This document shows, in pieces, positions 1,782-15,537 of a stretch of DNA of 64,000 bases. Each line of letters opens with the position of its first letter. Within the stretch, counting starts at the first letter, position 1. The notes under the pieces were generated by a model. That model ran no database searches, had not been told where the DNA came from, and was given only the letters and a program-made list of their open reading frames with translations. The translations under genes were made by a program, and so were the position numbers. Source of the DNA: an uncultured Prevotellaceae bacterium (lineage in GTDB: Bacteria > Bacteroidota > Bacteroidia > Bacteroidales > Bacteroidaceae); NCBI GenBank assembly GCA_947169245.1, contig CAMVPA010000004.1, forward strand, positions 47,478 to 111,477, written 5' to 3'.

Positions 1782-4523
1782 ATGGACGACGAAATAAAAG
1801 ACACCCAACTGCCGGAATCAGCGGAAAGCCCGGCGACAACGGACACTGGGGAAGCCCACTCCGACTATAAACCTGTCAACCGCTTCGACGCAGCGGTCGT
1901 ACACCACCTCTCGGGCATGTACCAGAGCTGGTTTCTGGACTACGCCTCATACGTCATTCTGGAACGTGCCGTACCCAACATCGAGGACGGCTTCAAGCCC
2001 GTGCAACGACGCATCATGCACTCCATGAAACGCATGGACGACGGACGCTACAACAAGGTGGCGAACATCGTGGGACACACCATGCAGTTCCACCCTCACG
2101 GCGACGCCAGCATAGGCGACGCCCTGGTGCAGCTGGGACAGAAAGACCTGCTGATAGACACGCAGGGAAACTGGGGAAACATATTGACGGGCGACCGCGC
2201 CGCAGCCCCGCGATACATCGAGGCACGCCTGTCGAAGTTTGCACTTGACTGTGTCTTCAACCCGAAGACCACGGAGTGGCAGCTCAGCTACGACGGCCGC
2301 AACAAGGAGCCCATCTCCCTGCCCGTGAAGTTCCCACTGCTGCTGGCACAGGGTGCCGAGGGCATTGCCGTGGGATTGTCGTCGAAAATCCTGCCCCACA
2401 ACTTCTGCGAGATATGCGACGCCGCTGTCAGCTACCTCCACGACGAGCCCTTCCAGCTCTACCCCGACTTCCAGACGGGCGGCAGCATCGACGTGTCGAA
2501 GTACAACGACGGCCAGCGCGGCGGCGTCCTGAAGGTGAGGGCAAAGATTGAGAAACTCGACCAGAAGACGCTCGTCATACGCGACCTGCCCTACTCCAAG
2601 ACCGTGGAGAGCCTCATCGAGAGCATCAAGAAGGCTATTGAGAAAGGTAAGATCAAAGCCAAGCGTGTGGACGACCTGACATCGGCACAGGTAGAGATAC
2701 AGATACACCTGATGCCCGGCGTGTCATCGGACAAGACGCTCGACGCCCTCTATGCCTTCACCGACTGCGAGATCAATATCTCGCCGAACTGCTGCGTCAT
2801 CAGCGACCAGAAACCACAGTTCCTCACCGTCAGCGACGTGCTGCGCCACAGCGTAGAGCGCACGAAGGACCTGATACGCCAGGAGCTGGAGATACGCAAG
2901 GGCGAACTGCTGGAGCAGCTGCACTTCTGCTCGCTGGAGAAGATCTTCATCGAGGAGCGCATCTACAAGGACAAGAAGTTCGAGCAGGCGCCAACCATCG
3001 ACGCCGTCTGCGAACATATTGACGAACGGCTGACACCCTACTACCCGCAGATGGTGCGCGAGGTGACGAAGGACGACATCCTGAAACTGCTGGAAATCAA
3101 GATGCAGCGCATCCTGAAGTTCAACAAGGACAAGGCCGACGAGCTGATGGCACGCATCAAGGCCGAGATTGACGAGATAGACCGCGACCTGGCCAACATG
3201 ATTGAGGTGACGGCCTCGTGGTTTATGTTCCTCAAGGACAAGTACGGCAAGGACCACCCGCGCCTGACGGAGATACGCAACTTCGACACCATCGAAGCCA
3301 CAAAGGTGGCCGAGGCCAACCAGAAGCTCTACATCAACCGCACGGACGGATTCATCGGCACAGGACTGAAGAAGGACGAGTACGTGTGCAACTGCTCTGA
3401 CATCGACGACATCATCATCTTCTACCGCGACGGCAAGTACAAGGTGGTACGCGTGGCCGAGAAGCTGTTCGTAGGCAAGAACGTGCTCTACCTGCAGGTG
3501 TTCAAGAAGAACGACTCACGCACCATCTACAACGCTGTCTACCGCGACGGCAAGAAAGGTCCCTGCTTCATCAAGCGCTTCAACGTGACCTCGATGACCC
3601 GCGACAAGGAGTATGACCTGACACAGGGCACGCCGGGCTCGAAGGTGATGTACTTCACCGCCAACCCCAACGGCGAGGCCGAGATTATCAAGGTGACGCT
3701 GGAGCCAAACCCAAAGCTGAAGAAGATATTCGTGGACAAGGACTTCTCGGAGGTGCTCATCAAGGGACGCGCCTCGAAGGGTAACCTGCTGACGAAGATG
3801 CCCGTACATCGCATCGGACTGAAGAGCCACGGACACTCCACGCTCGGCGGGCGCAAGGTGTGGTACGACCCCGACGTGAACCGTCTGAACTACGACGAGC
3901 ACGGCCGACTGCTGGGCGAGTTCTACGACGACGACCAGATTCTCGTGGTGCTCGACAACGGCGACTTCTACCTGACGAGCTTCGACGTGAACAACCACTA
4001 CGAGGCCAACATCCTGCGTATCGAGAAGTGGGAGCAGGACAAGGTGTGGAGCGCCGTCCTCTGGGATGCCGACAACCAGGGCTACCCCTACGTGAAGCGA
4101 TTCCTCATGGAAGCCACGAAGCGCAAGCAGAACTTCCTGGGCGAGAACCAGCTGTCGAAGCTCATCCTGCTGACCGACCAGGTATACCCGCGCCTGCAGG
4201 TTGTCTATGGCGGCAACGACGAGTTCCGCGGAAGCGAGGAGATAGACGTCGAACAGTTCATCACGGTCAAGGGCTTCAAAGCCAAGGGCAAGCGACTCAC
4301 CACCTACCAGACGGAGAGCATCACCGAGCTGGAGCCGACACGCTTCCCAGAGCCGCCGGAGGAATCTGAAGAGACAGAAGACACAGAGCCGCAGGAAGAA
4401 CAGGAACTACCTGAAAACCAGGAGGCACCAGAAGCACTGGACATCCCTGTAATCCCGGAGCCCCCTCTCCCACACGACCTAACAGCCCAACAGACGAGCC
4501 TATTCACAGATGAAGACTTTTAG
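1782..4523 (+). CDS. parC: DNA topoisomerase IV subunit A (ParC/GyrA family)
   Basis: 913 residues. Type IIA topoisomerase A subunit that breaks and rejoins duplex DNA for decatenation, with ParE supplying ATPase. The N-terminal winged-helix and tower region includes YASYVILERAVPNIEDGFKP, the quinolone-resistance-region stretch HPHGDASIGDALVQL, and AAAPRY with the catalytic tyrosine near residue 144. The C-terminal half has beta-pinwheel-like repeats and ends in an acidic Pro/Glu-rich tail (about residues 850-900). The sequence looks like the Bacteroidetes ParC type rather than GyrA (no GyrA box recognised), though a GyrA label cannot be fully excluded without alignment. The stop overlaps the next start by 14 bases. 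Confidence 0.93.
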   Translation: MDDEIKDTQLPESAESPATTDTGEAHSDYKPVNRFDAAVVHHLSGMYQSWFLDYASYVILERAVPNIEDGFKPVQRRIMHSMKRMDDGRYNKVANIVGHTMQFHPHGDASIGDALVQLGQKDLLIDTQGNWGNILTGDRAAAPRYIEARLSKFALDCVFNPKTTEWQLSYDGRNKEPISLPVKFPLLLAQGAEGIAVGLSSKILPHNFCEICDAAVSYLHDEPFQLYPDFQTGGSIDVSKYNDGQRGGVLKVRAKIEKLDQKTLVIRDLPYSKTVESLIESIKKAIEKGKIKAKRVDDLTSAQVEIQIHLMPGVSSDKTLDALYAFTDCEINISPNCCVISDQKPQFLTVSDVLRHSVERTKDLIRQELEIRKGELLEQLHFCSLEKIFIEERIYKDKKFEQAPTIDAVCEHIDERLTPYYPQMVREVTKDDILKLLEIKMQRILKFNKDKADELMARIKAEIDEIDRDLANMIEVTASWFMFLKDKYGKDHPRLTEIRNFDTIEATKVAEANQKLYINRTDGFIGTGLKKDEYVCNCSDIDDIIIFYRDGKYKVVRVAEKLFVGKNVLYLQVFKKNDSRTIYNAVYRDGKKGPCFIKRFNVTSMTRDKEYDLTQGTPGSKVMYFTANPNGEAEIIKVTLEPNPKLKKIFVDKDFSEVLIKGRASKGNLLTKMPVHRIGLKSHGHSTLGGRKVWYDPDVNRLNYDEHGRLLGEFYDDDQILVVLDNGDFYLTSFDVNNHYEANILRIEKWEQDKVWSAVLWDADNQGYPYVKRFLMEATKRKQNFLGENQLSKLILLTDQVYPRLQVVYGGNDEFRGSEEIDVEQFITVKGFKAKGKRLTTYQTESITELEPTRFPEPPEESEETEDTEPQEEQELPENQEAPEALDIPVIPEPPLPHDLTAQQTSLFTDEDF

Positions 4524-5289
4524 CATAGCACTACTGCTGACAGCAGCCACTACACTGAGCGCCCAGACGGTGAACACATCGGTCTGGCAGATTGGTGCGG
4601 GACCTACATACATCCTCGACACCTTCCTGTCGCAGGAGAAATTCAGCGGCTCGGGCCTGACGCTGCTGAACACCACGGAACGGCAGCGCGACGACAAGCG
4701 ATGGTGTACCATCATGGAGCATGAGCTGAACATGGCCACGGCCGACGACCGATCAGGCAAACGAGAAGAACTACAAGCCAGTTATACCGCCTTCGGAGGT
4801 GCCCTGCACAACTGGCAGCATGGCAAGCTGCAGCTTCAGGCCGGCGCTGTTGCAGCGCTCGATCTGGGTGTCATCTACAACACCAGCAACAGCAACAACC
4901 CCGCTCAGGGCCGGTTCTCGCTGCAACTCATGCCGACAGGCACAGCAGCCTACAACCTGAAACTGTGGCGCCGGCCGCTCAAGCTGCGCTACGAAGTACA
5001 ACTGCCGTTAGCCGGTGTGATGTTCAGCCCCAACTACGGACAGTCGTACTACGAGATTTTCTCCTTAGGCGACTACGACAACAACATCGTACAGACGACC
5101 TTCGTCACGGCTCCCAACATGCGTCAACAGCTGTCGGCCGATTACCTCGTCGGCAAGAATCTGACACTGAGGCTAGGCTATCTGGGACACTACCAGCAGG
5201 CAAAAGTTAACAACTTGAAGTCGCACATCTACAACCATCGACTGATGATTGGTATCGTGCGCCGATTCTCTATCATACCACGCCCATGA
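4510..5289 (+). CDS. DUF3316-like exported protein
   Basis: 259 residues. It begins with a signal peptide (MKTFSIALLLTAATTLSAQ), followed by alternating hydrophobic and polar strands with many Tyr, Gly and Asn residues, suggesting a small outer-membrane beta-barrel. The overall pattern (mature N-terminus VNTSVWQIGAGPTYILDTF, C-terminal RLGYLGHYQQAKVNNLKSHIYNHR) resembles the Bacteroidetes family DUF3316. No catalytic motif was seen. Its first 14 bases lie inside the end of parC and its stop overlaps the start of the S41 protease gene, so the three are probably translated from one mRNA. Function unknown. Confidence 0.75.
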   Translation: MKTFSIALLLTAATTLSAQTVNTSVWQIGAGPTYILDTFLSQEKFSGSGLTLLNTTERQRDDKRWCTIMEHELNMATADDRSGKREELQASYTAFGGALHNWQHGKLQLQAGAVAALDLGVIYNTSNSNNPAQGRFSLQLMPTGTAAYNLKLWRRPLKLRYEVQLPLAGVMFSPNYGQSYYEIFSLGDYDNNIVQTTFVTAPNMRQQLSADYLVGKNLTLRLGYLGHYQQAKVNNLKSHIYNHRLMIGIVRRFSIIPRP

Positions 5290-6344
5290 ACACCACCATA
5301 CAAGCAAGACACCGACTACCACACTGGTTGAGCTGCGCTGTCCACTCGCTCTGCTGCGGCATTGCTGCAGCGCTACTCCTCACTGCCTGCGTCGACGAAG
5401 ACGATTACCCCGACACACCGCAGGGCAACTTCGAGGCACTCTGGCAGATCATCGACCAGCACTACTGCTTCCTTGACTACAAACAGCACGAGATAGGATT
5501 GGACTGGCAGCAAGTTTATAATAAATATAAGGTACGCGTGAACAACGACATGAGCAACTACCAGCTCTTCGAGGTGCTCGCCGACATGCTCTCGGAACTG
5601 CGCGACGGCCATGTCAACATGACGGCAGCTCACGACTATGCACGCAACTGGTCGTGGTTTGAGGACTATCCCACCAACTACAGCGACTCGCTGGAGCGCA
5701 TCTATATGGGCCGCGACTACAAGATTGCGGCAGGAGTGGACTACCGCATACTCGATGACAACATAGGCTACATACGCTATGAGTCGTTCCAGCAGGGCGT
5801 CGGCGAAGGCAACATGAACGAAATGCTGACAGAACTGCTCACCTGCACGGGCATTATCATCGACATCAGAAACAACGGTGGCGGCGACCTGACCAACGCC
5901 AATAGCTTTGCTGCACGTTTTGCCAACGAGAAGACACTCGTAGGCTACATACAACACAAGACGGGCAAGGGACACAGTGACTTCTCGGAAATGAAACCCC
6001 GATACCTGGAACCGTCGAACCAGCTACGCTGGCAAAAGCCCATCTGCGTGCTCACCAACCGCCATGTCTATTCCGCTGCCAACGAGTTCACGCTCTACAT
6101 GAAGTCGTTGCCTAACGTCAAACTGGTGGGCGACCATACTGGCGGCGGCTCGGGCATGCCCTTCAGCTCGTCGCTGCCTAACGGCTGGTCGGTGCGCTTC
6201 TCGGCCGTACCGATGTACGACACGCAGCGCAATCCAACAGAATTCGGCATTGAGCCCGACTATCGGGTCGACATGACTGAAGAGGACTTCAGGAGAGGAA
6301 AGGATACGATTATCGAGTTTGCGCGCCAGTTGTTAACAAAATAA
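5286..6344 (+). CDS. S41-family (C-terminal processing) protease lipoprotein
   Basis: 352 residues. A hydrophobic N-terminus with a lipobox-like end (LLLTACVDEDDYP) predicts a lipoprotein anchored in the cell envelope. A tail-specific-protease core follows: GYIRYESF, IIIDIRNNGGGDL near residue 197, and VYSAANEF near residue 261, which carries the probable nucleophilic serine. A PDZ domain is not obvious, as in many Bacteroidetes S41 lipoproteins. These enzymes cleave periplasmic or surface proteins near their C-termini; the substrate here is unknown. It overlaps the DUF3316-like gene by 4 bases and is followed by the tRNA pair. Confidence 0.85.
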   Translation: MNTTIQARHRLPHWLSCAVHSLCCGIAAALLLTACVDEDDYPDTPQGNFEALWQIIDQHYCFLDYKQHEIGLDWQQVYNKYKVRVNNDMSNYQLFEVLADMLSELRDGHVNMTAAHDYARNWSWFEDYPTNYSDSLERIYMGRDYKIAAGVDYRILDDNIGYIRYESFQQGVGEGNMNEMLTELLTCTGIIIDIRNNGGGDLTNANSFAARFANEKTLVGYIQHKTGKGHSDFSEMKPRYLEPSNQLRWQKPICVLTNRHVYSAANEFTLYMKSLPNVKLVGDHTGGGSGMPFSSSLPNGWSVRFSAVPMYDTQRNPTEFGIEPDYRVDMTEEDFRRGKDTIIEFARQLLTK

Positions 6345-6662: not shown

Positions 6663-7136
6663 TTACTCGCGACGCTCCGTAGAATAGCGCACGGTGACCG
6701 TGGGCGAGTAAGTGTTCAACAATGTCAGCAGGACGGTGCCTTTGTCGTTCTGGAACGTGGCCTCCTTGTGCAGGTCGCCATGCTTACCCATGTTAGGCCA
6801 GCCAAACTCCTTCTCGAAACTGTCGTGCAGCGACTGCCACAAGTTGGAAGTCGAGTCATTGTACGTAGCCGTGTAGTTCTCCAGAATGTCGAGGATCGTG
6901 TCGTTCTGATGATAGACAGCCACGGTGAAATTATGAGCCAGGGTGTCGGTCAGCACGTAGCGGTCATCATACTGCGTGGTGTCCAACCAGAGGTTCGGCA
7001 GCTTCTGCTGCAGAGAGTCAACCATCGACTTAGCCGACATGCCCATAGTCATGCCGCGATAGTCAATATACCCGCGCTCACTTGAGCAAGCGCACATCAG
7101 ACACAGAGCCGTAAAGGCCATCATGAGTTTCTTCAT
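6663..7136 (-). CDS. Small lipoprotein of unknown function
   Basis: 157 residues. The N-terminus MKKLMMAFTALCLMCACSS is a lipoprotein signal with Cys at about residue 17. The mature part (MGMSAKSMVDSLQQKLPNLW and following) is soluble, mixed alpha/beta and without a motif I recognise. It is monocistronic: its own promoter lies at 7172-7179 and it converges on the tRNA terminator. Function unknown. Confidence 0.8.
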   Translation of the reverse strand: MKKLMMAFTALCLMCACSSERGYIDYRGMTMGMSAKSMVDSLQQKLPNLWLDTTQYDDRYVLTDTLAHNFTVAVYHQNDTILDILENYTATYNDSTSNLWQSLHDSFEKEFGWPNMGKHGDLHKEATFQNDKGTVLLTLLNTYSPTVTVRYSTERRE

Positions 7137-7254: not shown

Positions 7255-7262
7255 TATCTTTG
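7255..7262 (+). promoter_or_regulatory. -7 box for the HMA-TonB-DUF4876-FMN operon
   Basis: TATCTTTG followed by GCA, 22 bases upstream of the chosen ATG at 7285. A weak GTTG lies near the -33 position. No other promoter-like sequence was seen before the terminator at 15510, so the whole six-gene operon may depend on this one. I saw no Fur, Zur or CueR operator that I could defend. Confidence 0.65.
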
Positions 7263-7284
7263 CAGCCAAAAGAATGACTACGTC

Positions 7285-8043
7285 ATGAAAAGGACTACAT
7301 TGCTACTAACAGGACTGCTGATGGCCATTGCCATGCAGGCCGCTACCGCAACTGATACTATTACTGTACGCATCAAAGGCATGCGCTGTGAGGAATGTGC
7401 ACACAAAGTGAACACAGTGCTGCACAAGTTGAATGGCGTGAAAAGCATTGACTACAACTTGGAACGACGCACGGCAACCATTGCCTACGACAAGGTACTG
7501 ACGTGTCGCGACACCATCGAGGCACGGCTGGCTGCCACCGGCCGCTACAAGGCATCGGCCTATAGTAAGGACGAGGTGATACGCCGTGGCATGGGACTGC
7601 AGATGAGCGACATGCACTGTCAGAAGTGTGCCGACCGCATCACGAAACGACTGGAGCAGATAGAGGGCGTCGACAGTCTTGCACCAAAGGTGGACAAGCA
7701 ATACGTCTTCGTGCGCTACGACGCCAACCGTACCAACAAGGACATCATCCGCCAGGCACTGGCAGACCTGGGCTTTACCCCAGTGAACTACTACACGAGC
7801 ACGGACATCAGCTTTGCCTACTTCCTGATTCCAAAGGAGGCGGCCAACGACGAGACCATTGATACAGTCCTTGCGCTGGACGGTGTCGACGATGCCAACG
7901 TCAACGCGAAACGCGGATCGCTGGCCATCACCTACATCAACACCGAGACAAGCACGGAGAAGCTGCAGGAACAGCTGAAGGCCGAAGGCATCGATGCTAC
8001 CCTGCCGCCTGCCCACGAGTGTAAGGAAGAGAAACAACAGTAA
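7285..8043 (+). CDS. Exported protein with tandem heavy-metal-associated (HMA) domains
   Basis: 252 residues from the ATG at 7285; an earlier in-frame ATG at 7240 lies upstream of the -7 box and is not credible. A signal peptide (MKRTTLLLTGLLMAIAMQAA) is followed by two HMA domains with intact CxxC metal sites, GMRCEEC and DMHCQKC, each in the usual beta-alpha-beta context (residues about 28-95 and 100-170). A third degenerate repeat (about 175-240) lacks the cysteines. HMA domains bind soft metals such as Cu(I), Zn(II) or Cd(II); most are cytoplasmic or the N-termini of P-type ATPases, so an exported tandem version is unusual. It is first in an operon with a TonB receptor 5 bases downstream, suggesting a periplasmic metal carrier. 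The metal is unknown. Confidence 0.82.
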   Translation: MKRTTLLLTGLLMAIAMQAATATDTITVRIKGMRCEECAHKVNTVLHKLNGVKSIDYNLERRTATIAYDKVLTCRDTIEARLAATGRYKASAYSKDEVIRRGMGLQMSDMHCQKCADRITKRLEQIEGVDSLAPKVDKQYVFVRYDANRTNKDIIRQALADLGFTPVNYYTSTDISFAYFLIPKEAANDETIDTVLALDGVDDANVNAKRGSLAITYINTETSTEKLQEQLKAEGIDATLPPAHECKEEKQQ

Positions 8044-8047
8044 GCCT

Positions 8048-10753
8048 ATGCGACAACTACTACTGATACTCGCCATGGCATGCTGCACAGCAGTCTCGGC
8101 GAAGAACTACAGCATTAGCCTGACCATTACGGAACAGGACACGCAGGAGGCTGTCGTCATGGGCAACATCAGCCTGAAGCCGGCAGGCATCCTCGCCGTC
8201 ACCGACGCCGACGGCAAAGCCCTCATCCAGAACGTTCCCGAGGGCGAATACACACTGACCATCACGTATGTGGGCTATGAGACCATCAGCCGCCGAGTCA
8301 GGGTCGACCGCGACCTGACAATGAACCTGAAGATGACACCCACGTCGCTGGCCCTGAAGGAGGTGACGGTGACGGCAAAGACCCGTGAGAGCGGTGCCTC
8401 GACAAGCAGCGTCATCGGCCGACAGGCCATTGACCACCTGCAGGCCACCTCACTGGCCGACGTCATGCAACTGATTCCCGGACAGCTCATCGACCGTCCT
8501 GACCTGACGCAGCAACAGGGTCTGCAGCTACGCACATTACAGAACAACTCGACGATGGCCTTCGGCACAAGCATCGTGGTCGACGGCATGCCGATGTCGA
8601 ACAACGGCAATGTGGGCCAAGGCACTTTCACAGGCTCGGCTTTCGCGGGCACCGACCTCAGACAGGTAAGTGCTGACAACATCGAAGAGGTGGAGGTCAT
8701 ACGTGGCATCCCCTCGGCCGAATATGGCGACCTGACCAGCGGCCTCGTCGTGGTACACTCGAAGGTTGGCGTGACGCCATGGCAGGCAAAGGCGAAAATC
8801 AATCCCGGCCTGCAGAATTACAGCTTAGGCAAGGGTCTGAGGCTGGGTAAGGGAGGTGTCGTCAATGCCAACATCGACTACGCCAAGGCATGGGGCGACC
8901 CACGACAGAAGACCCGCTCGTTCGACCGCTATACGGCCAACATGGGCTGGGGCTACGACATCAGCCGCAAGTGGCACACCGACACAAAGCTGCGTTTCAT
9001 GCAGGCCAAGGACTGGACGGGTAACGACCCTGACGCCATCCAGGACGGGACCGAGAACCGCTCTACGAACACCAACTTCGGACTGACACACAACGGCAAG
9101 CTGCAGATGGACCTGCCACTGATGCGCTCACTGAAATACACCATTGGCCTCAGCCTGTCGAAAGCCGATACCAAGAACACGAGCTATGTTGCCGTGAGCA
9201 GCGGACTGCTGCCCATACTGACCGCTATGGAGACGGGCTACTACAGCGTGCCCTGGAAGACGACGTCGTATCTGGCAACAGGACGGACGGAGAGCCGACC
9301 GGGCAACGTCTTCCTGAAGGTGACCGACGACTTCTTCATGCGTAAGGGCAAGACGGTGCAGAGCTTCAAACTTGGCGTAGACTACCACTACGACTGGAAC
9401 AACGGCAAGGGCTACTATAACGAAATCGACACGCTGCCCTACCGTCCGAACGCCAACGGTCGTCCCCGTGCTTTCAGCGACATTCCCGGACTGCATCAGC
9501 TGTCGGTCTTCGCCGAGGACCAGTTCACGTATAATATTAATAAGGTGAACCGCCTGCGCGTGAACTTCGGTCTGCGCTTCACGTCACTGCAGCCCTTCAG
9601 CGACCTGGCCACCACGGCACTGTCGCCACGACTGAACATGGCCTTCACGGTGACGAAGTGGCTCGACCTGCGAGGAGGCATCGGCATGAACTCGAAGACG
9701 CCCGGCCTGAACCACCTCTATCCTGACAAGAAATACATCGACGACGTCGTGGGCAGTTACACGCTGAGCGATCCTGCCGCCTACTACGTACACACCGAGG
9801 TGTACGACGTGCAGCGCTCGAAGGGTCTGAAGAACGCGACGACGACAAAGGTGGAAGCGGGCATCGACATCAAACTGCCCAAGAACCGCAAGATCAGCGT
9901 GCTGGCCTATCAGGACCGTACGCCCAACGGCTTCGAGGTGGCCTCCGACTACTTCACATACACCTACAACTACTTCGGCGAGGGCAATAGGCCAGCCATC
10001 GTCAACGGACAGCCCGACTTCACGACGGGCTACACAGAGCAGTTCACCTGCTTCGCCACGACGGGACAGCTGGAGAACACCAACAAGACCATCAACCGCG
10101 GTGTGGAGTTCGACTTCGACCTGGGCGAGATTCGTCCGCTGCGCACCACCCTCTTCTTCAGCGGTGCGTGGAACGAGACGAAGACCGACTGGAGCACGCG
10201 CATGAACAACACTGCCGTGCCCGCTTCACTGCTCAGTGGAACAAAATATGTCGGCAAGGGCATCTCGCCCGTCCGCATCGTCTACCCATCGGGACTGGAC
10301 TACACGCGCCTGCGCCGGTTCATCAACACCCTGCGCGCCGTCACCCACATACCACAGCTGAACATGGTAGCCTCGTTCACGGGACAGGTTATCTGGCATA
10401 ACTCCACCTGGAGCTACACGGCCGACAAGGACCCGATAGGCTGGATTACGAGCGACCTGCAGTACCACGACATCAATTCGGCAGAGTACATCGTCTTCGA
10501 TGGCGGACAGATAGCCACCAACGACGAAAAGCTGAAGCTGCGCTACACTGACAACGAGCCGACGAAGAACCCCGTGACATGGAACCTGTCGGCACGACTG
10601 ACGAAGGAATTTGACAAGATGGGCGCTTTGTCGCTCTTTGTAGACAACTGTCTCTTCTACGAGCCCTACCTGAAAGGCAATAACACCACGACGCTGTCGC
10701 AGCGCAACACAGGCAAGTTTGCCTTCGGCGCTGAACTCTCCATTAATCTGTAA
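8048..10753 (+). CDS. TonB-dependent outer-membrane receptor
   Basis: 901 residues from the ATG at 8048. Signal peptide (MRQLLLILAMACCTAVSA), carboxypeptidase-like regulatory domain (about residues 25-105, with ADGKALIQNVPEGEYTLTITYVGYE), TonB plug (about 110-240, with VVDGMPMSN and VIRGIPSAEYGD), then a beta-barrel rich in aromatic and Gly strands to the C-terminus. It is not a SusC partner: no SusD follows. Between an exported metal-binding protein and two DUF4876-like proteins, it probably imports a metal, metal complex or cofactor using TonB energy. ATG selection avoids the longer frame overlapping the HMA gene. Confidence 0.92.
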   Translation: MRQLLLILAMACCTAVSAKNYSISLTITEQDTQEAVVMGNISLKPAGILAVTDADGKALIQNVPEGEYTLTITYVGYETISRRVRVDRDLTMNLKMTPTSLALKEVTVTAKTRESGASTSSVIGRQAIDHLQATSLADVMQLIPGQLIDRPDLTQQQGLQLRTLQNNSTMAFGTSIVVDGMPMSNNGNVGQGTFTGSAFAGTDLRQVSADNIEEVEVIRGIPSAEYGDLTSGLVVVHSKVGVTPWQAKAKINPGLQNYSLGKGLRLGKGGVVNANIDYAKAWGDPRQKTRSFDRYTANMGWGYDISRKWHTDTKLRFMQAKDWTGNDPDAIQDGTENRSTNTNFGLTHNGKLQMDLPLMRSLKYTIGLSLSKADTKNTSYVAVSSGLLPILTAMETGYYSVPWKTTSYLATGRTESRPGNVFLKVTDDFFMRKGKTVQSFKLGVDYHYDWNNGKGYYNEIDTLPYRPNANGRPRAFSDIPGLHQLSVFAEDQFTYNINKVNRLRVNFGLRFTSLQPFSDLATTALSPRLNMAFTVTKWLDLRGGIGMNSKTPGLNHLYPDKKYIDDVVGSYTLSDPAAYYVHTEVYDVQRSKGLKNATTTKVEAGIDIKLPKNRKISVLAYQDRTPNGFEVASDYFTYTYNYFGEGNRPAIVNGQPDFTTGYTEQFTCFATTGQLENTNKTINRGVEFDFDLGEIRPLRTTLFFSGAWNETKTDWSTRMNNTAVPASLLSGTKYVGKGISPVRIVYPSGLDYTRLRRFINTLRAVTHIPQLNMVASFTGQVIWHNSTWSYTADKDPIGWITSDLQYHDINSAEYIVFDGGQIATNDEKLKLRYTDNEPTKNPVTWNLSARLTKEFDKMGALSLFVDNCLFYEPYLKGNNTTTLSQRNTGKFAFGAELSINL

Positions 10754-10759
10754 AGCAAT

Positions 10760-11971
10760 ATGAAGAAGATACTATTCACCTTGGCAACACTGCTGTCGCT
10801 GGCATCGTGCATCGACTACAACGATGCCACCACGGAAATAACGGCCCGCGTACAGCTGGCGATGCCGGCAGAGTTCGTCAACGGCACTGACCTGGCAGGC
10901 CACACCATCACGATGCAGCAGGGCAGCACGCTGCTGACGGCGACCACCGACGAGGACGGCGTGGCGACATTTGCCAATCTCATCCCCGACGTCTACGACA
11001 TCAGCTGCTCGTGGGAGCTGACAGCCGACCAGTACCATGCACTGACAGGCGACGAGCAGGTGGTCAGCGGCTGCACCGTCAGCGGTTCGCTGAACAGCCA
11101 CCTCATCCGTGAGGAGCAGACCATCGAACTCGGCACAAACCTCAGCATCAACCGCGACATCATCATCGGCAAGATATACTACGCCGGCTCGAAGGACAAC
11201 AACAACCGCAGCTACATGCCAGGCAAGTACATTGAGCTCTACAACCAGAGCAACAATGCCGTTGACGTCAGCGGACTATACATCGGACTCGTCGAGGCAG
11301 AGAGCACGCAAGCCTATACGCTGGAGAACCTGCACGAGGCCTTTGCCGACACGGTGGTGCTGGTGAAGCAGGTGTTCCGTATTCCTGCCGACGTACCCTT
11401 CATGGTACAGCCCGGCGCTACGGTGCTCATTGTGAACAGCGCCACGGACCACCGTAACAACAACGACATGGAGAACGACCTGAGCGATGCCGACTTTGAG
11501 GCAAAAGATGCCACTGGCAAGACGCAGAACAACCCTGACGTGCCTGCGCTGGAGCTCATCTACACGATGTACCCCAGTGTCTCGAACATGAATCTCGTGC
11601 AGAGCGGCCCCTGCTCCGTAGTCATCTTCCGCACCGACGACGACATAGCGACGTGGGCCACGACCTACCCCTACGGCAAAACCTCCGGCAACCAGTGGAA
11701 ACTGCTGCCCAAGCGCCACATCATTGACGGCGTGGAGGTGCTGCGCAACAAGAACACGGGCATTGACGTGAGCTCCAAGCGCCTCTACAGCGAGATAGAT
11801 GCCGGCTATACGAACATCGAAGCCATCTCGGGCTACACCGGAGAGGTCGTCTACCGCCGCACCAGCGACAAACGGGGTGACGACGGCCACAAGATTCTCA
11901 TCGACACCAACAACTCGAGCAACGACTTCCAGGTCTCCAAAACGATAAAACCGCGCGAATATGACGAATAA
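10760..11971 (+). CDS. DUF4876-like lipoprotein (first copy)
   Basis: 403 residues. A lipoprotein signal (MKKILFTLATLLSLASC, Cys 17) is followed by an Ig-like/carboxypeptidase-regulatory segment (about residues 30-115) and then a domain beginning IIIGKIYYAGSKDNNN. Its KYIELYNQSNNAVDVSGLYI stretch resembles the lamin-tail (LTD) fold. The pattern matches my recollection of DUF4876. It starts 6 bases after the receptor gene and overlaps the next gene by 11 bases. The second half is clearly paralogous to the protein at 13529. A surface lipoprotein acting with the TonB receptor, as a lid or substrate-capture subunit, is a reasonable inference but not shown. Confidence 0.8.
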   Translation: MKKILFTLATLLSLASCIDYNDATTEITARVQLAMPAEFVNGTDLAGHTITMQQGSTLLTATTDEDGVATFANLIPDVYDISCSWELTADQYHALTGDEQVVSGCTVSGSLNSHLIREEQTIELGTNLSINRDIIIGKIYYAGSKDNNNRSYMPGKYIELYNQSNNAVDVSGLYIGLVEAESTQAYTLENLHEAFADTVVLVKQVFRIPADVPFMVQPGATVLIVNSATDHRNNNDMENDLSDADFEAKDATGKTQNNPDVPALELIYTMYPSVSNMNLVQSGPCSVVIFRTDDDIATWATTYPYGKTSGNQWKLLPKRHIIDGVEVLRNKNTGIDVSSKRLYSEIDAGYTNIEAISGYTGEVVYRRTSDKRGDDGHKILIDTNNSSNDFQVSKTIKPREYDE

Positions 11972-13502
11972 GTTCCGCACATTGGCCTTATTGGCCCTAT
12001 TAGCCCCATTGGGCCTATTCGCCCCATTGGCCGCATTAGCCCAAGAAGGCAGCTACCGCCACGCCGACGCCACGCAGCTGTGGCGCCTGTCGGGCAACGC
12101 TGCCGGACTGGCGCTCGACAGCAGCGCCAACCGTGGCTATGCGCAGTTTGAACTGCAACACCGCGAGGGCGACTATCACCGTGTACAGGAGGGCGGACAG
12201 CGTAACCAGCTTCAGTTCTACACGGAGCGCTACCAGCAGATTAACCCCCTGCTCGTGAGCTACGGCTCGTTCCGTTTCAATATGGACCACACCAAAGGCC
12301 GAGCCTGGTGTGACGTCATGCGGCCCTACAACAGCAACCCGTTCTTCTCGGGCAGCAGTGTCAGTGGCAAGTACGACACCCAGCAGTTCGACCTCACCGC
12401 CGCCGTGGGAACCCGGCAGATGTGGGGCTTCACGGGTGGTCTGCGCCTGGACTACAGCGTAGGCGACCTGAGTCGTCTGCGCGACCCGCGCTCCCGCTCT
12501 GAGCTGCTCGACTACAAGCTGGCACCATCGCTGACCTACAGCACGGGGAGCCACACTGTGGGTATTGCCGGCCACTACAACCGCCGTAAGGAGAAGATAC
12601 CCAGCATGACCACCGTCCAGCAAGACCCTGACCTGAAGTACTACCTCATGACAGGTATGGAGCAGGCCACGGGTACCACCGGCGGCTACAGCGGTTACAA
12701 CCGCGAGTGGGTGGACCACCGCTTCGGTGCAGAACTGACCTACGGCTACAACAACGGCGCCTTAAAGAGCCTCAGCAGCGTCACCATAGAACGCGGCTCG
12801 GAGGACGTGCTTGGCACGTATAAGTATGAGCCGGGCCACTACATGAGCTACCGCTACGGGCTCACCTCCCACAACCGTATAGATTTGCACCAGATAGACT
12901 TCGCCGTCGGCTACGAGCAGGCCTACGCCGACGAATACCGCCAACAGCTTGTACAAGAGCGCGATGCCGAGAAAGGCTATACCAGCTACTGGTACGAGAC
13001 GCTTATCACCTTCAAGAAGCGCTACCAGGTGAAACAGCTCAACGCAGAGCTCCACTACCGCTACAACATGTACTTGCATATCGGTTGTACCCCCGACAGC
13101 TATTTCGGAATAAAAGCCGCTCTGAACCAGGCAGAAAACAAACACCTGCTGCCGACATCAAGCCTCGAGTACACTCATCTCGACCTAACCGGCGAGGGCG
13201 GCACATCGCTGCTGTTTGAACATCTTTGGATTGACGCCAAGGCCGGCTACCACATCGCTTCGAAAGCCGACCTGCAGCTGGCCGACGCCACCACCGACTA
13301 TGCCATCCAAGTGCTGCTGCCCGACATGCAGTACTACGATGCCAACTACTGGCGCGGTCATCTCTCCCTGACCTACCAGTTCCCGCTGTCGCTGAAGGGC
13401 AAGCGCACCACCGCCTTCGTCCGTGCCTACGGCGACTACCTCAGTGCCGACCACGGCCTCAACGGCTCTACCGTCGGTCTCTCCTTCGGACTATTCAACT
13501 AA
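11961..13502 (+). CDS. Outer-membrane beta-barrel protein (DUF6850-like)
   Basis: 513 residues. The signal peptide is built almost wholly from a 9-bp DNA repeat and reads as L-A-L and L-A-P tripeptides up to about residue 27 (cleavage near ALAQ). The mature protein is a run of amphipathic beta-strands ending in a Phe-containing strand (LSFGLFN), as expected for an outer-membrane barrel of about 20 strands. I associate this arrangement, between DUF4876 genes, with the family DUF6850, with moderate confidence. It overlaps the upstream DUF4876 gene by 11 bases, so translation is coupled. Its role beside the TonB receptor is unknown. Confidence 0.75.
   Translation: MTNKFRTLALLALLAPLGLFAPLAALAQEGSYRHADATQLWRLSGNAAGLALDSSANRGYAQFELQHREGDYHRVQEGGQRNQLQFYTERYQQINPLLVSYGSFRFNMDHTKGRAWCDVMRPYNSNPFFSGSSVSGKYDTQQFDLTAAVGTRQMWGFTGGLRLDYSVGDLSRLRDPRSRSELLDYKLAPSLTYSTGSHTVGIAGHYNRRKEKIPSMTTVQQDPDLKYYLMTGMEQATGTTGGYSGYNREWVDHRFGAELTYGYNNGALKSLSSVTIERGSEDVLGTYKYEPGHYMSYRYGLTSHNRIDLHQIDFAVGYEQAYADEYRQQLVQERDAEKGYTSYWYETLITFKKRYQVKQLNAELHYRYNMYLHIGCTPDSYFGIKAALNQAENKHLLPTSSLEYTHLDLTGEGGTSLLFEHLWIDAKAGYHIASKADLQLADATTDYAIQVLLPDMQYYDANYWRGHLSLTYQFPLSLKGKRTTAFVRAYGDYLSADHGLNGSTVGLSFGLFN
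11981..12043 (+). repeat. Seven tandem 9-bp units (ATTGGCCCC-like) inside a signal peptide
   Basis: Seven consecutive 9-bp units, for example ATTGGCCCT, ATTAGCCCC and ATTCGCCCC, occupy 63 bases and encode the hydrophobic core of the signal peptide of the barrel protein. The same unit occurs at 33771, 56444 and 58416. Confidence 0.9.
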
Positions 13503-13528
13503 ATACTAACTTATAAAAAGAAACACTT

Positions 13529-15100
13529 ATGAGAATAACTACTCCACTGAAAGCGCTGGCCATCGCTGCCGGCCTGTTACTGACCGCTAACGCTGCAGAA
13601 GCCAAGCTTGTGAAGCCAAGCACCTACGCCAACGATGTCGTCATCGGCAAGGTTTACTACGCTGGCGCCAAGGACAATGGCAACAAGAACTACCTCAATG
13701 GCAGATACATTGAGCTCTACAACATCTCGACAGACACGCTCGACATCTCAGGCATGTACATCGGTCTCGTTGAGAGCGACGCAAAGGCCAGTGCATGGAC
13801 TGCAGAACGACTGACTGAAGCCCACAAGGACTCCGTAGCACTGAAGCAGCTGTTCCGTATTCCAGCCAACGCCAAGATGGATCCCTACAGTAGCATCGTC
13901 ATCGTTAACAGCGCCATCGACCACTCGGCCAACGGCGAGAACTTCCCCAATTTGACTGACGCCGACTTCGAGGCCAAGGATGCCTCTGGCAAGACGCAGA
14001 ACAACCCCGAAGTGCCTGCGCTCGAACTGGTCTACACAGCCTTCGACGCCATTTCTAACATGAATTTGGCTCAAGGCGGTGCTTGTGCCGTAGTGTTGCT
14101 GACACAGGACACCAAGACCGACGATTTGACAAAGACCTTTGCCTACGGCAAGGAGAAGGGTTCTGTATATGTGCTGCTGCCGAAGAGCAAGGTGATCGAC
14201 GGCGTGGAAATCGTCAAGATGGGTGAAGCTGAGGAAGGAATACTGCGTCTTGACAATAGCCTGGACGCCGGTAACATCGCCATCACCTCCAAGACGGGCT
14301 ACAACGGTGAGGTCGTCTACCGTAAGACCGCATTCGTCGTAGGCGGCAAGGCCGCTCTCTTCGACACGAACAACTCGACCGTCGACTTCGCTGTGTCAAC
14401 GACCATCCAGCCCCGCCAGTATGACAGCGAGGCCAGCGGTCTGACGGCACAGAGCATCACCATCCCCGAAAGCGGCTATCTGGCCATCAACATTGACAAA
14501 CCATTCTTCGGACCGAAGGACATGCTCTTCTGCTTTGTCAACGCCAGCAACAACGACGCCACCACCGACCTCAAGTACACGGAGATTCCCGGCGACAGCA
14601 CGCTGCTGCTGAAGGGCGACTGGATTGCCATCGCCAAGCCCGGCACATACGACCTGCAGCTGTCGGCTTCACAGGGTGTGATGAAGAGTCGCTCGTCTAT
14701 CCAGTCGTGGAGCGACGAGGACACCAAGACCATGAAGCAGACCAACCGCCGCTACTACAAGTTCTTGAATACAACAGGTAAGGTTGGCTTCCAGCGCGTG
14801 CCTGCTACAGCCGAAGGAAACTACAACGTGGCCGACTGTACTGACGGTAACCGTCTGATTGTCACCATCACCGATGCCATCGGCGCCCGCATCTTTGCTG
14901 CTAACGGTGCAGCAAGCTGGGACGAACTCGAGTTCATTCCCTGGCACGGTGCAACGCCAGAGCAAGCTGCTGCCAGCGTACAGGGCATCACGGTACAGCC
15001 CATCAGCAACGGAGCCATCTACGACCTGCAGGGTCGTCGCGTCGTTAAACCTTTGAAGGGTATTTACGTCAAAGATGGTAAGAAGATGATTATCAAATAA
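13529..15100 (+). CDS. DUF4876-like secreted protein (second copy) with C-terminal module
   Basis: 523 residues. It has a plain signal peptide ending in ANAAEA rather than a lipobox. The first roughly 290 residues are paralogous to the upstream lipoprotein: VVIGKVYYAGAKDNGN, RYIELYNISTDTLDISGMYI and the shared KTQNNPEVPALELVY segment. An added C-terminal half (about 300-500) ends in YDLQGRRVVKPLKGIYVKDG, the short Bacteroidetes C-terminal module related to type IX sorting or anchoring tails. Tandem duplication with divergence of anchoring (lipid versus C-terminal module) is the simplest reading. It lies 26 bases after the barrel gene and 6 bases before the FMN-binding gene. Confidence 0.8.
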   Translation: MRITTPLKALAIAAGLLLTANAAEAKLVKPSTYANDVVIGKVYYAGAKDNGNKNYLNGRYIELYNISTDTLDISGMYIGLVESDAKASAWTAERLTEAHKDSVALKQLFRIPANAKMDPYSSIVIVNSAIDHSANGENFPNLTDADFEAKDASGKTQNNPEVPALELVYTAFDAISNMNLAQGGACAVVLLTQDTKTDDLTKTFAYGKEKGSVYVLLPKSKVIDGVEIVKMGEAEEGILRLDNSLDAGNIAITSKTGYNGEVVYRKTAFVVGGKAALFDTNNSTVDFAVSTTIQPRQYDSEASGLTAQSITIPESGYLAINIDKPFFGPKDMLFCFVNASNNDATTDLKYTEIPGDSTLLLKGDWIAIAKPGTYDLQLSASQGVMKSRSSIQSWSDEDTKTMKQTNRRYYKFLNTTGKVGFQRVPATAEGNYNVADCTDGNRLIVTITDAIGARIFAANGAASWDELEFIPWHGATPEQAAASVQGITVQPISNGAIYDLQGRRVVKPLKGIYVKDGKKMIIK

Positions 15101-15106
15101 ACGAAA

Positions 15107-15505
15107 ATGAAGAAAATAATACTTGGCGGACTGGCGCTCATCGCGCTGGCCGCAACACTACAGAGTGCCCTGCCTAAGGGCGATGACATCATCACGAAGG
15201 AGGATGGCATGACCGTTGTCAACACCACAGAGTTGGGTAAGGATGTCGTCGGCTATGTCGCCACCACACCCCTGAAAATCTACATTCAGAAGAATAAGGT
15301 GGTGAAGGTCGAGGCACTGAAGAATCAGGAGACGCCCAAGTACTTCGTGAAAGTGAAGAAGCAACTGCTGGACAAGTGGAATGACAAGAAGGTGAGCGAG
15401 GCCGCCAAGATGAAGGTCGACGGCGTCACCGGCGCCACGTTCTCGTCGGACGCTGTCATCAAGAACGTCCAACTGGGACTGGAATACTACCAGAAGAACA
15501 AGTAA
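15107..15505 (+). CDS. Exported FMN-binding (flavinylated) domain protein
   Basis: 132 residues. An N-terminal hydrophobic segment (MKKIILGGLALIALAATL) exports or anchors a single FMN_bind domain of the RnfG/NqrC type. The flavinylation motif is visible near the C-terminus as DGVTGATFSS, where the second Thr of TGAT is the usual site of covalent FMN attachment by ApbE. No apbE, RnfG membrane partner or NADH dehydrogenase subunit lies in the window. Last gene of the operon, 6 bases after the DUF4876 gene, so an extracytoplasmic flavin redox step is tied to this uptake system. The electron donor and acceptor are unknown. Confidence 0.85.
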   Translation: MKKIILGGLALIALAATLQSALPKGDDIITKEDGMTVVNTTELGKDVVGYVATTPLKIYIQKNKVVKVEALKNQETPKYFVKVKKQLLDKWNDKKVSEAAKMKVDGVTGATFSSDAVIKNVQLGLEYYQKNK

Positions 15506-15509
15506 TAAG

Positions 15510-15537
15510 AAAAGCCCTCGCGATTGCGGGGGCTTTC
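15510..15537. terminator. Bidirectional terminator between the FMN gene and asd
   Basis: The hairpin AAAGCCCTCGC / GCGGGGGCTTT has a 4-base loop and T/A-rich flanks on both sides. It would end the rightward metal/flavin operon and the leftward asd transcript. Confidence 0.85.

Follow-up and report, generated by a model that had tools for sequence, protein, structure and literature searches.

What does a bacterium import through an operon that joins a soft-metal binding protein, a TonB-dependent receptor and a flavin redox protein? The question is raised by a six-gene locus of an uncultured Prevotellaceae bacterium, found in a stretch of 64,000 nucleotides of contig CAMVPA010000004.1 (assembly GCA_947169245.1) to which we refer, in its full length, as the window. 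The genes encode, in this order, an exported HMA protein, the receptor, a lipoprotein with DUF4876 and LTD domains, a DUF6850 protein, a second DUF4876 protein and an exported FMN_bind protein. An initial annotation proposed that a metal or its complex is imported here, leaning toward Cu/Zn-type metals, and that flavin-driven reduction is coupled to this import. That we are dealing with an import locus and a predicted flavin protein, both conserved beyond this genome, has held up, and the coupling to reduction is plausible; the leaning toward Cu/Zn has not, since homologous DUF4876/TonB loci belong to a published iron stimulon, which makes iron likelier than Cu or Zn. Our favored reading, to which we give a probability of about 0.5, is that the operon is a DUF4876/TonB-type iron-starvation import system with flavin-driven release of the metal.

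Among the loci of Bacteroidota reported to respond strongly to iron starvation are those with DUF4876. Iron depletion raises PG1019-22 of Porphyromonas gingivalis 20.8-214.5-fold, BT3625-33 of Bacteroides thetaiotaomicron 38.1-128.1-fold and BT1933-39 of the same species 3.5-7.4-fold; for Prevotella intermedia, PIN17_RS07775-90 is depicted as the corresponding locus (PMC10434189). A P. gingivalis DUF4876 gene shows a log2 fold change of -5.42 in a hemin comparison (PMC10470040), and the lipoprotein PG_1019 goes up 18-fold, alongside flavodoxin and HmuY, in a strain overexpressing an RNA-binding protein (PMC12119571). The window operon is homologous to these loci: its receptor is immediately followed by DUF4876 and the DUF6850 barrel, just as a TonB receptor adjoins DUF4876 in PG1019-22, BT1938-39, BT3625-33 and PIN17_RS07775-90, and its lipoprotein is homologous to BT_1938 (PDB 4q1z; phmmer E 7.9e-12, residues 72-391). 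A weak structural model of the lipoprotein (predicted local distance difference test score, pLDDT, 66.7) also has 4q1z as its best Foldseek match (E 2.2e-18). By analogy with these loci, the window operon may be iron-repressed. It differs from them in its extension: the excerpts available from the published accounts mention neither HMA nor FMN_bind for these four loci, and BT3625-33 has PepSY, ATP-binding cassette (ABC) and DUF4857 genes where the window operon has HMA and FMN_bind. The excerpts of PMC10434189, PMC10470040 and PMC12119571 assign no substrate to their DUF4876 loci, and our literature search returned neither an assigned ligand for such loci nor an operator for their control; a search joining HMA, FMN-binding, TonB and Prevotella gave no match for the HMA plus FMN_bind composition. 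The view that no system of this kind had been described must thus be narrowed: the DUF4876/TonB core figures in iron-stimulon papers, and flavinylated PepSY-TonB clusters are in print, so that what appears new is the extension by HMA and FMN_bind.

The arrangement of the six genes is not a product of chance, because the core and its HMA and FMN_bind partners recur, with their order kept, in other genomes. DUF6850 is present in 77 of 200 genomes of the genus sample, and of the 121 genomes in the family sample, 36 have DUF4876 and 21 a DUF6850 homologue. With profiles derived from the proteins of the window and some Pfam-annotated neighbors, we mapped 40 genus loci, 40 family loci and, in addition, L033 and L034 (40 of 44 near-full-length DUF6850 matches were fetched for the genus; G056 had been fetched earlier as L058, and G252, G197 and G280 were left out). 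The nearest named loci by DUF6850 belong to an uncultured Prevotellaceae metagenome-assembled genome (L033, 75%, taken to be the same contig as L099) and to Xylanibacter brevis ATCC 19188 (L034, 56%). A core of receptor, DUF4876 and DUF6850 is constant across the family, and direct comparison finds a DUF4876 reading frame in 40/40 genus DUF6850 loci. With the window set aside, an HMA gene adjoins this core in 23/40 genus loci: in 13 of them it immediately precedes the receptor, in nine it follows DUF6850, and in one it follows DUF6850 on the other strand. FMN_bind stands behind DUF6850 in 11/40, ten times directly after an operon that begins with HMA (the remaining locus, L112, is cut by the contig end). 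With the window counted and L112, whose receptor is cut, left out, HMA lies just 5' of the receptor in 14 loci, 11 of which have FMN_bind; none of the other 26 does, in a comparison uncorrected for the descent that relates these loci. HMA homologues occur in 49 of the 200 genus genomes, 42 of which also have DUF6850, versus 34 of the other 151 (this list leaves out seven short or second pieces and so holds 76 DUF6850 genomes, not 77), and 33 of 50 HMA matches lie within 9 kb of a DUF6850 match. The HMA-first order with FMN_bind is common to the window, L098-L101, L106, L113-L115, L117, L118 and L034; outside the genus, L083 and L084 read receptor, DUF4876, DUF6850, an unknown gene, an M16 peptidase and FMN_bind. 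Conservation of the six-gene set as such had to be given up, as all six genes, second DUF4876 included, occur together only in L100 among the fetched loci. The neighborhood search called for by the initial annotation hence supports the core and, in part, its two partners, but not the full set.

FMN_bind proteins need the flavin transferase ApbE, and an ApbE gene is present in the window's genome. The FMN_bind domain of the operon contains D-G-x-T-G-A-T, with TGAT kept in 15/15 homologues, and from these features the protein is predicted to carry covalent flavin. Many relatives hold a peptidase or a PepSY gene near the core, which suggests that FMN_bind is an alternative metal-release module. 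The partners include M16 peptidases, C25/HEAT and C1 proteins, S46 peptidases, Met-zincins (DUF4953) and M6 peptidases, and a peptidase-profile gene is the direct neighbor of the core in 6/40 genus and 20/40 family loci (labels beyond the Pfam-checked representatives rest on profiles, the C25 assignment is weak, and the matches of L075 and L120 are pieces cut by the locus end). Additional to these counts, L098-L101, the four closest relatives, have an S8 subtilase gene immediately after FMN_bind. L076, L090 and L095 share the layout of BT3625-33: they encode PepSY_TM_like_2 proteins close to DUF4857, and L076 also an ABC ATPase.

Coupling flavinylation to TonB transport is not new as an idea, since PMC8238504 reports TonB-PepSY clusters: PepSY families PF03929/PF16357 with flavinylated partners are tied there to iron reduction, 231 flavinylated PepSY clusters hold a TonB receptor, and extraction of siderophore-bound iron is proposed. 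Both these clusters and the window operon combine a flavinylated-type protein with a TonB receptor. In the available part of that report, however, the clusters include a PepSY protein in the membrane, and their flavin is mostly carried by DUF2271, whereas the window operon has a single-domain FMN_bind protein and no membrane electron carrier, with HMA, DUF4876 and DUF6850 added. XusABC of B. thetaiotaomicron (PMC13142918) has the surface lipoprotein, TonB receptor and metal-reducing module that we propose for the window operon, XusC being the reductase that frees iron from siderophores. As far as the available text of that paper goes, XusB is a DUF4374 and not a DUF4876 protein, the reductase is an inner-membrane PepSY protein, and HMA and DUF6850 are not among the three named parts. 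Fus and Ydd-PqqL import (PMC6793856) combines a TonB receptor with a peptidase and is iron-linked, as seen in relatives of the window operon, but the excerpted account describes it for Proteobacteria, and the peptidases of our relatives span several families. The PDB contains PqqU with PQQ, and PqqU is the same protein as YddB, so that protein import is only a possible function of this member.

In the mechanism that we favor, the DUF4876 lipoprotein, whose lipobox LASC has its Cys17 invariant across 26 aligned rows, is likely a capture protein, presumably exposed on the surface, and would pass a ligand that carries iron on to the TonB receptor, with DUF6850 acting as a partner barrel. The ligand could be protein- or peptide-like, because peptidases lie near the core in relatives. 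The FMN_bind protein would then reduce Fe(III) through its predicted covalent flavin, which would free the metal in the periplasm for uptake by the HMA protein; Fe(II) would finally enter through a presumed inner-membrane importer. FMN_bind would do what PepSY reductases do in Xus and in DUF4876 loci of the BT3625-33 type, and what peptidases do elsewhere. A bolder version is that of a self-contained reductive iron-piracy machine, that is, a TonB system with its own periplasmic covalent-flavin reductase and HMA acceptor, in which flavoprotein, peptidase and PepSY are interchangeable modules on a DUF4876-DUF6850-TonB core and the relatives' operator TACC-N8-GGTATTG is under a hemerythrin/LuxR iron sensor. 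This version we consider less likely than not. The window's branch gives direct experimental access, because its only flavoprotein and its HMA protein are both soluble and so open to purification and assay.

The putative operator is a shared element found about 20 bases before the -7 box, upstream of DUF4876/DUF6850 operons. At least 11 of its 14 positions match in 34 of 75 non-redundant upstream sequences (75 of 77 were kept, the near-duplicates L115 and L086 being dropped), when 100 shuffles give a mean of 0.49 and a maximum of 3; this count is not independent, because the motif was derived from those very sequences. The genome-wide scan is a more independent test: the motif with a -7 box at fixed distance has 110 sites in 40/61 genomes, and the reversed pattern has nine. 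Deprived of the fixed-distance -7 box, the short pattern TACCN8RGTATTG was discarded as a regulon marker, with 30 sites versus 20 for the control in five genomes. Twenty of the 110 sites lie within 1.5 kb of a gene for a hemerythrin plus LuxR homologue, with 0.13 expected under even placement (the regulator list holds 53 of the stronger hemerythrin-containing places, of which there are at least 53). Such proximity to a hemerythrin(/LuxR) regulator gene is seen in 18/61 genomes; a regulator homologue exists in 57/61, more than hold the motif. Likewise, the motif is upstream of nine of 31 DUF4876 places, with 0.12 expected (the list covers G000-G060 and leaves out a 57-residue piece, G010:C8). 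In the window's genome, the sole motif site precedes the gene of a hemerythrin-GerE fusion regulator (L218:1-1024; G000:C13:51662-52682), as is described for P. intermedia (PMC10434189).

The genes behind the motif (regions were fetched for 40/110 sites, and 20 chosen proteins were scanned, five of them without a Pfam match) include AhpC, TetR, methyltransferase, TonB receptor and PepSY_TM genes and an HMA gene (L191). This set resembles the published iron stimulon; the motif also precedes sulfatase, phosphatase, hydrolase and cytochrome c assembly genes, for which, as for the five without a Pfam match, there is no obvious fit. The inverted half-sites TACCTA presumably resemble NarL/LuxR-type operators. 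Judging from sequence, TACC-N8-GGTATTG with its -7 box may be an operator that defines an iron (CdhR-type) regulon of Bacteroidales, which would give a candidate operator to the hemerythrin/LuxR (CdhR-type) regulator, whose mechanism is called unclear in PMC10434189.

The HMA protein has three HMA stretches, with CxxC in the first two only, and an HxC near the C terminus; among aligned homologues CxxC-1 is kept in 25/25, and CxxC-2 and the C-terminal HxC in 23/25 each. The HMA fold with MxCxxC of CopZ/MerP-type metallochaperones is thus present, with two sites. Scores that sum over several HMA stretches reach 84.1 bits on the copper-ion-binding model TIGR00003 (cut-off 62), 91.4 on CopZ_Bs (cut-off 91, exceeded by 0.4) and 93.6 on CopZ_Eh (cut-off 95), and the protein stays below the cut-off of the MerP mercury-binding equivalog (69.9 versus 92.55 bits).

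Iron is a less natural partner of two CxxC HMA sites than Cu(I) or Zn(II), and a soft-metal HMA domain serving an iron system is the weak point of the iron reading. Several other observations weigh against it. HMA is absent in 16/40 genus loci (one more is cut by the contig end), and 17/50 HMA matches lie away from a DUF6850 match, some of them on other or short contigs. The promoter of the window operon lacks the motif (8/14), and among the 11 non-redundant promoters of HMA-first operons with FMN_bind, window and L034 included, only those of L100, L101 and L114 match at 11 or more positions (L098 at 10). Pfam finds no peptidase, M16 or other, and no PepSY gene in the window operon (7285-15505), though these are present near the core in many relatives. 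The sole window-genome relative of the operon-linked subtilases is on another contig, among neighbors judged by eye, and is 42-46% identical to these subtilases, which share 52-59% among themselves, so that it was rejected as an operon-linked release enzyme; the genome is an estimated 75% complete, which makes absences from it weak evidence. Peptidase-profile genes within four mapped genes of the core (11/40 genus and 27/40 family loci) are counted without a background rate. The invariant first CxxC, the scores above TIGR00003 and, barely, one CopZ model, and a promoter without the iron-linked motif would all fit import of Cu or Zn, perhaps as a metal-peptide, in which the FMN protein reduces Cu(II) and the HMA protein carries Cu(I). 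We find this rather unlikely, though still a serious rival: in the excerpted reports (from a literature searched under DUF4876, not specifically for Cu or Zn), expression of the homologous core loci changes with iron and hemin, and the HMA gene of L191 and DUF4876 operons share their motif with hemerythrin/LuxR regulator, AhpC and TetR genes resembling the iron stimulon.

It is also possible, though on the unlikely side, that the ligand is a xenosiderophore, freed by reduction as in Xus by means of other protein families. The lipoprotein, TonB receptor and redox module of the Xus logic are all matched, PepSY occurs in DUF4876 relatives, and the receptor plug is closest to FepA-type receptors; however, the recurrent peptidase neighbors would have no obvious role on most siderophores, and the six operon proteins have no Pfam match to DUF4374 or to a PepSY reductase. 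That the core has peptidases from several unrelated families in its vicinity would rather be expected if the locus scavenged proteins or peptides for their amino acids, with iron control being indirect and HMA and FMN_bind mere passengers. This is improbable given the strong iron response of related loci, as far as it is reported, and the active motifs that HMA and FMN_bind retain. We see even less room for a function in metal or redox sensing and protection, with the HMA and FMN proteins shielding the envelope from soft metals or oxidants. AhpC does share the promoter motif, and the available part of PMC10101095 reports altered transcript levels of PG_1019 and PG_1020 when PG_0686, a diguanylate cyclase induced by H2O2, is mutated; but the receptor, lipoprotein and barrel are import-type parts, and the operon order is tight.

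In layout (Table 1), the six genes lie on the + strand at 7285-15505, with successive gaps of 4, 6, -11, 26 and 6 bases, a spacing from which we infer a single transcript. The initial annotation had listed one promoter, six co-directional genes no more than 26 bases apart, one terminator, the protein families, the two CxxC sites and DGVTGAT, and the open reading frames (ORFs), the Pfam matches and the conservation of both motifs in homologues all agree with it. The putative promoter is a Bacteroidetes-type -7 box (consensus TAnnTTTG); a sigma-70 scan found no promoter ahead of the operon. The terminator scan is by itself weak support (10 sites versus 8.3 in shuffles), and the stem is credited because of its position directly behind the last gene. 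The receptor is counted from its own ATG; a longer mechanical ORF begins at 7994.

Table 1. Features of the operon in window coordinates.
Feature	Position	Strand	Details
Bacteroidetes-type -7 box	7255-7262	+	Read as TATCTTTG; about 30 bases 5' of the HMA start
Exported HMA protein	7285-8043	+	252 amino acids; Pfam HMA 4.8e-32
TonB-dependent outer-membrane receptor	8048-10753	+	901 amino acids; CarbopepD_reg_2 6.9e-14, Plug 1.2e-13
DUF4876/LTD lipoprotein	10760-11971	+	Pfam DUF4876 1.3e-26, LTD 5.9e-10
DUF6850 protein	11961-13502	+	Pfam DUF6850 1.5e-87
Second DUF4876 protein	13529-15100	+	Pfam DUF4876 3.4e-22
Exported single-domain FMN_bind protein	15107-15505	+	Pfam FMN_bind 2.8e-13, motif DGVTGAT
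Intrinsic terminator-like stem	15511-15536	+	11 pairs; directly behind the last gene

Among the core proteins, the receptor has only ferric enterobactin receptors as PDB matches, and these at the plug end only. The AlphaFold model of DUF6850 (pLDDT 80) is a beta-barrel with short N-terminal helices and no plug, and we predict an outer-membrane barrel of this kind. Fold searching as a route to its function was abandoned: the 50 matches listed are all generic TonB barrels (template modeling score over the query at most 0.41, root-mean-square deviation 12.7-21.9), and a literature search for DUF6850 returned none.

On visual inspection, the second DUF4876 protein has a signal peptide; it lacks a lipobox, and its C-terminal tail, IYDLQGRRVVKPLKGIYVKDGKK, is of the sorting type. 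In this bacterial group, tails of this kind typically mark cargo of type IX secretion; the present one was found by eye and regular expression, has no NCBIfam sorting-domain match, and SprA is present in the genome. Both DUF4876 matches of the window's genome fall inside the operon, and the initial annotation saw the pair as surface capture subunits. This does not generalize, as phmmer finds a second DUF4876 like that of the window in only 5/41 genus loci, window included: L100, L109 and L122 have a protein of the same type in the slot behind DUF6850, and in L120 the DUF4876 frame lies on the opposite strand. Second-copy labels in L098, L101, L104, L108, L119, L126 and L133 were withdrawn, since these proteins have no DUF4876 domain (Pfam on L098, L101, L104, L108 and L126; phmmer on all seven); most had matched through the common C-terminal tail. 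The pair is not a rule: elsewhere the slot is empty or, in several loci, filled by other secreted proteins with a similar tail and no DUF4876. The slot between DUF6850 and FMN_bind is probably better described as one for a secreted helper with an exchangeable head.

Some minor observations concern the same genes. Between DUF6850 and HMA, L111 (11021-12190) and L130 (4881-6083) encode a protein that looks secreted and whose C terminus is of the dockerin type, the match of the L111 protein being slightly below the Pfam cut-off. A separate DUF4876-profile frame of 126-131 amino acids is found directly behind the receptor, with an M16 gene downstream, in L072, L077, L080, L088, L091 and L093, where the DUF4876 domain seems to be split or duplicated. 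In L120 and L132, two receptor-DUF4876-DUF6850 sets of different subfamilies stand in tandem, separated by an HMA gene; upstream lies a divergent M16 gene, which in L120 is truncated where the locus ends. Behind the motif, L201, L204, L212, L222, L226 and L199 encode an outer-membrane-like protein with variants of the N-terminal string IGGYGEA...SRNF(F/Y)SDNYLRY; that of L201 has no Pfam match. Upstream of the window operon and on its strand, Pfam identifies a DUF3316 protein (4510-5289) and an S41 peptidase with a Tricorn_C1 domain (5286-6344), which we left out of the operon because a gene on the opposite strand (6663-7136) intervenes.

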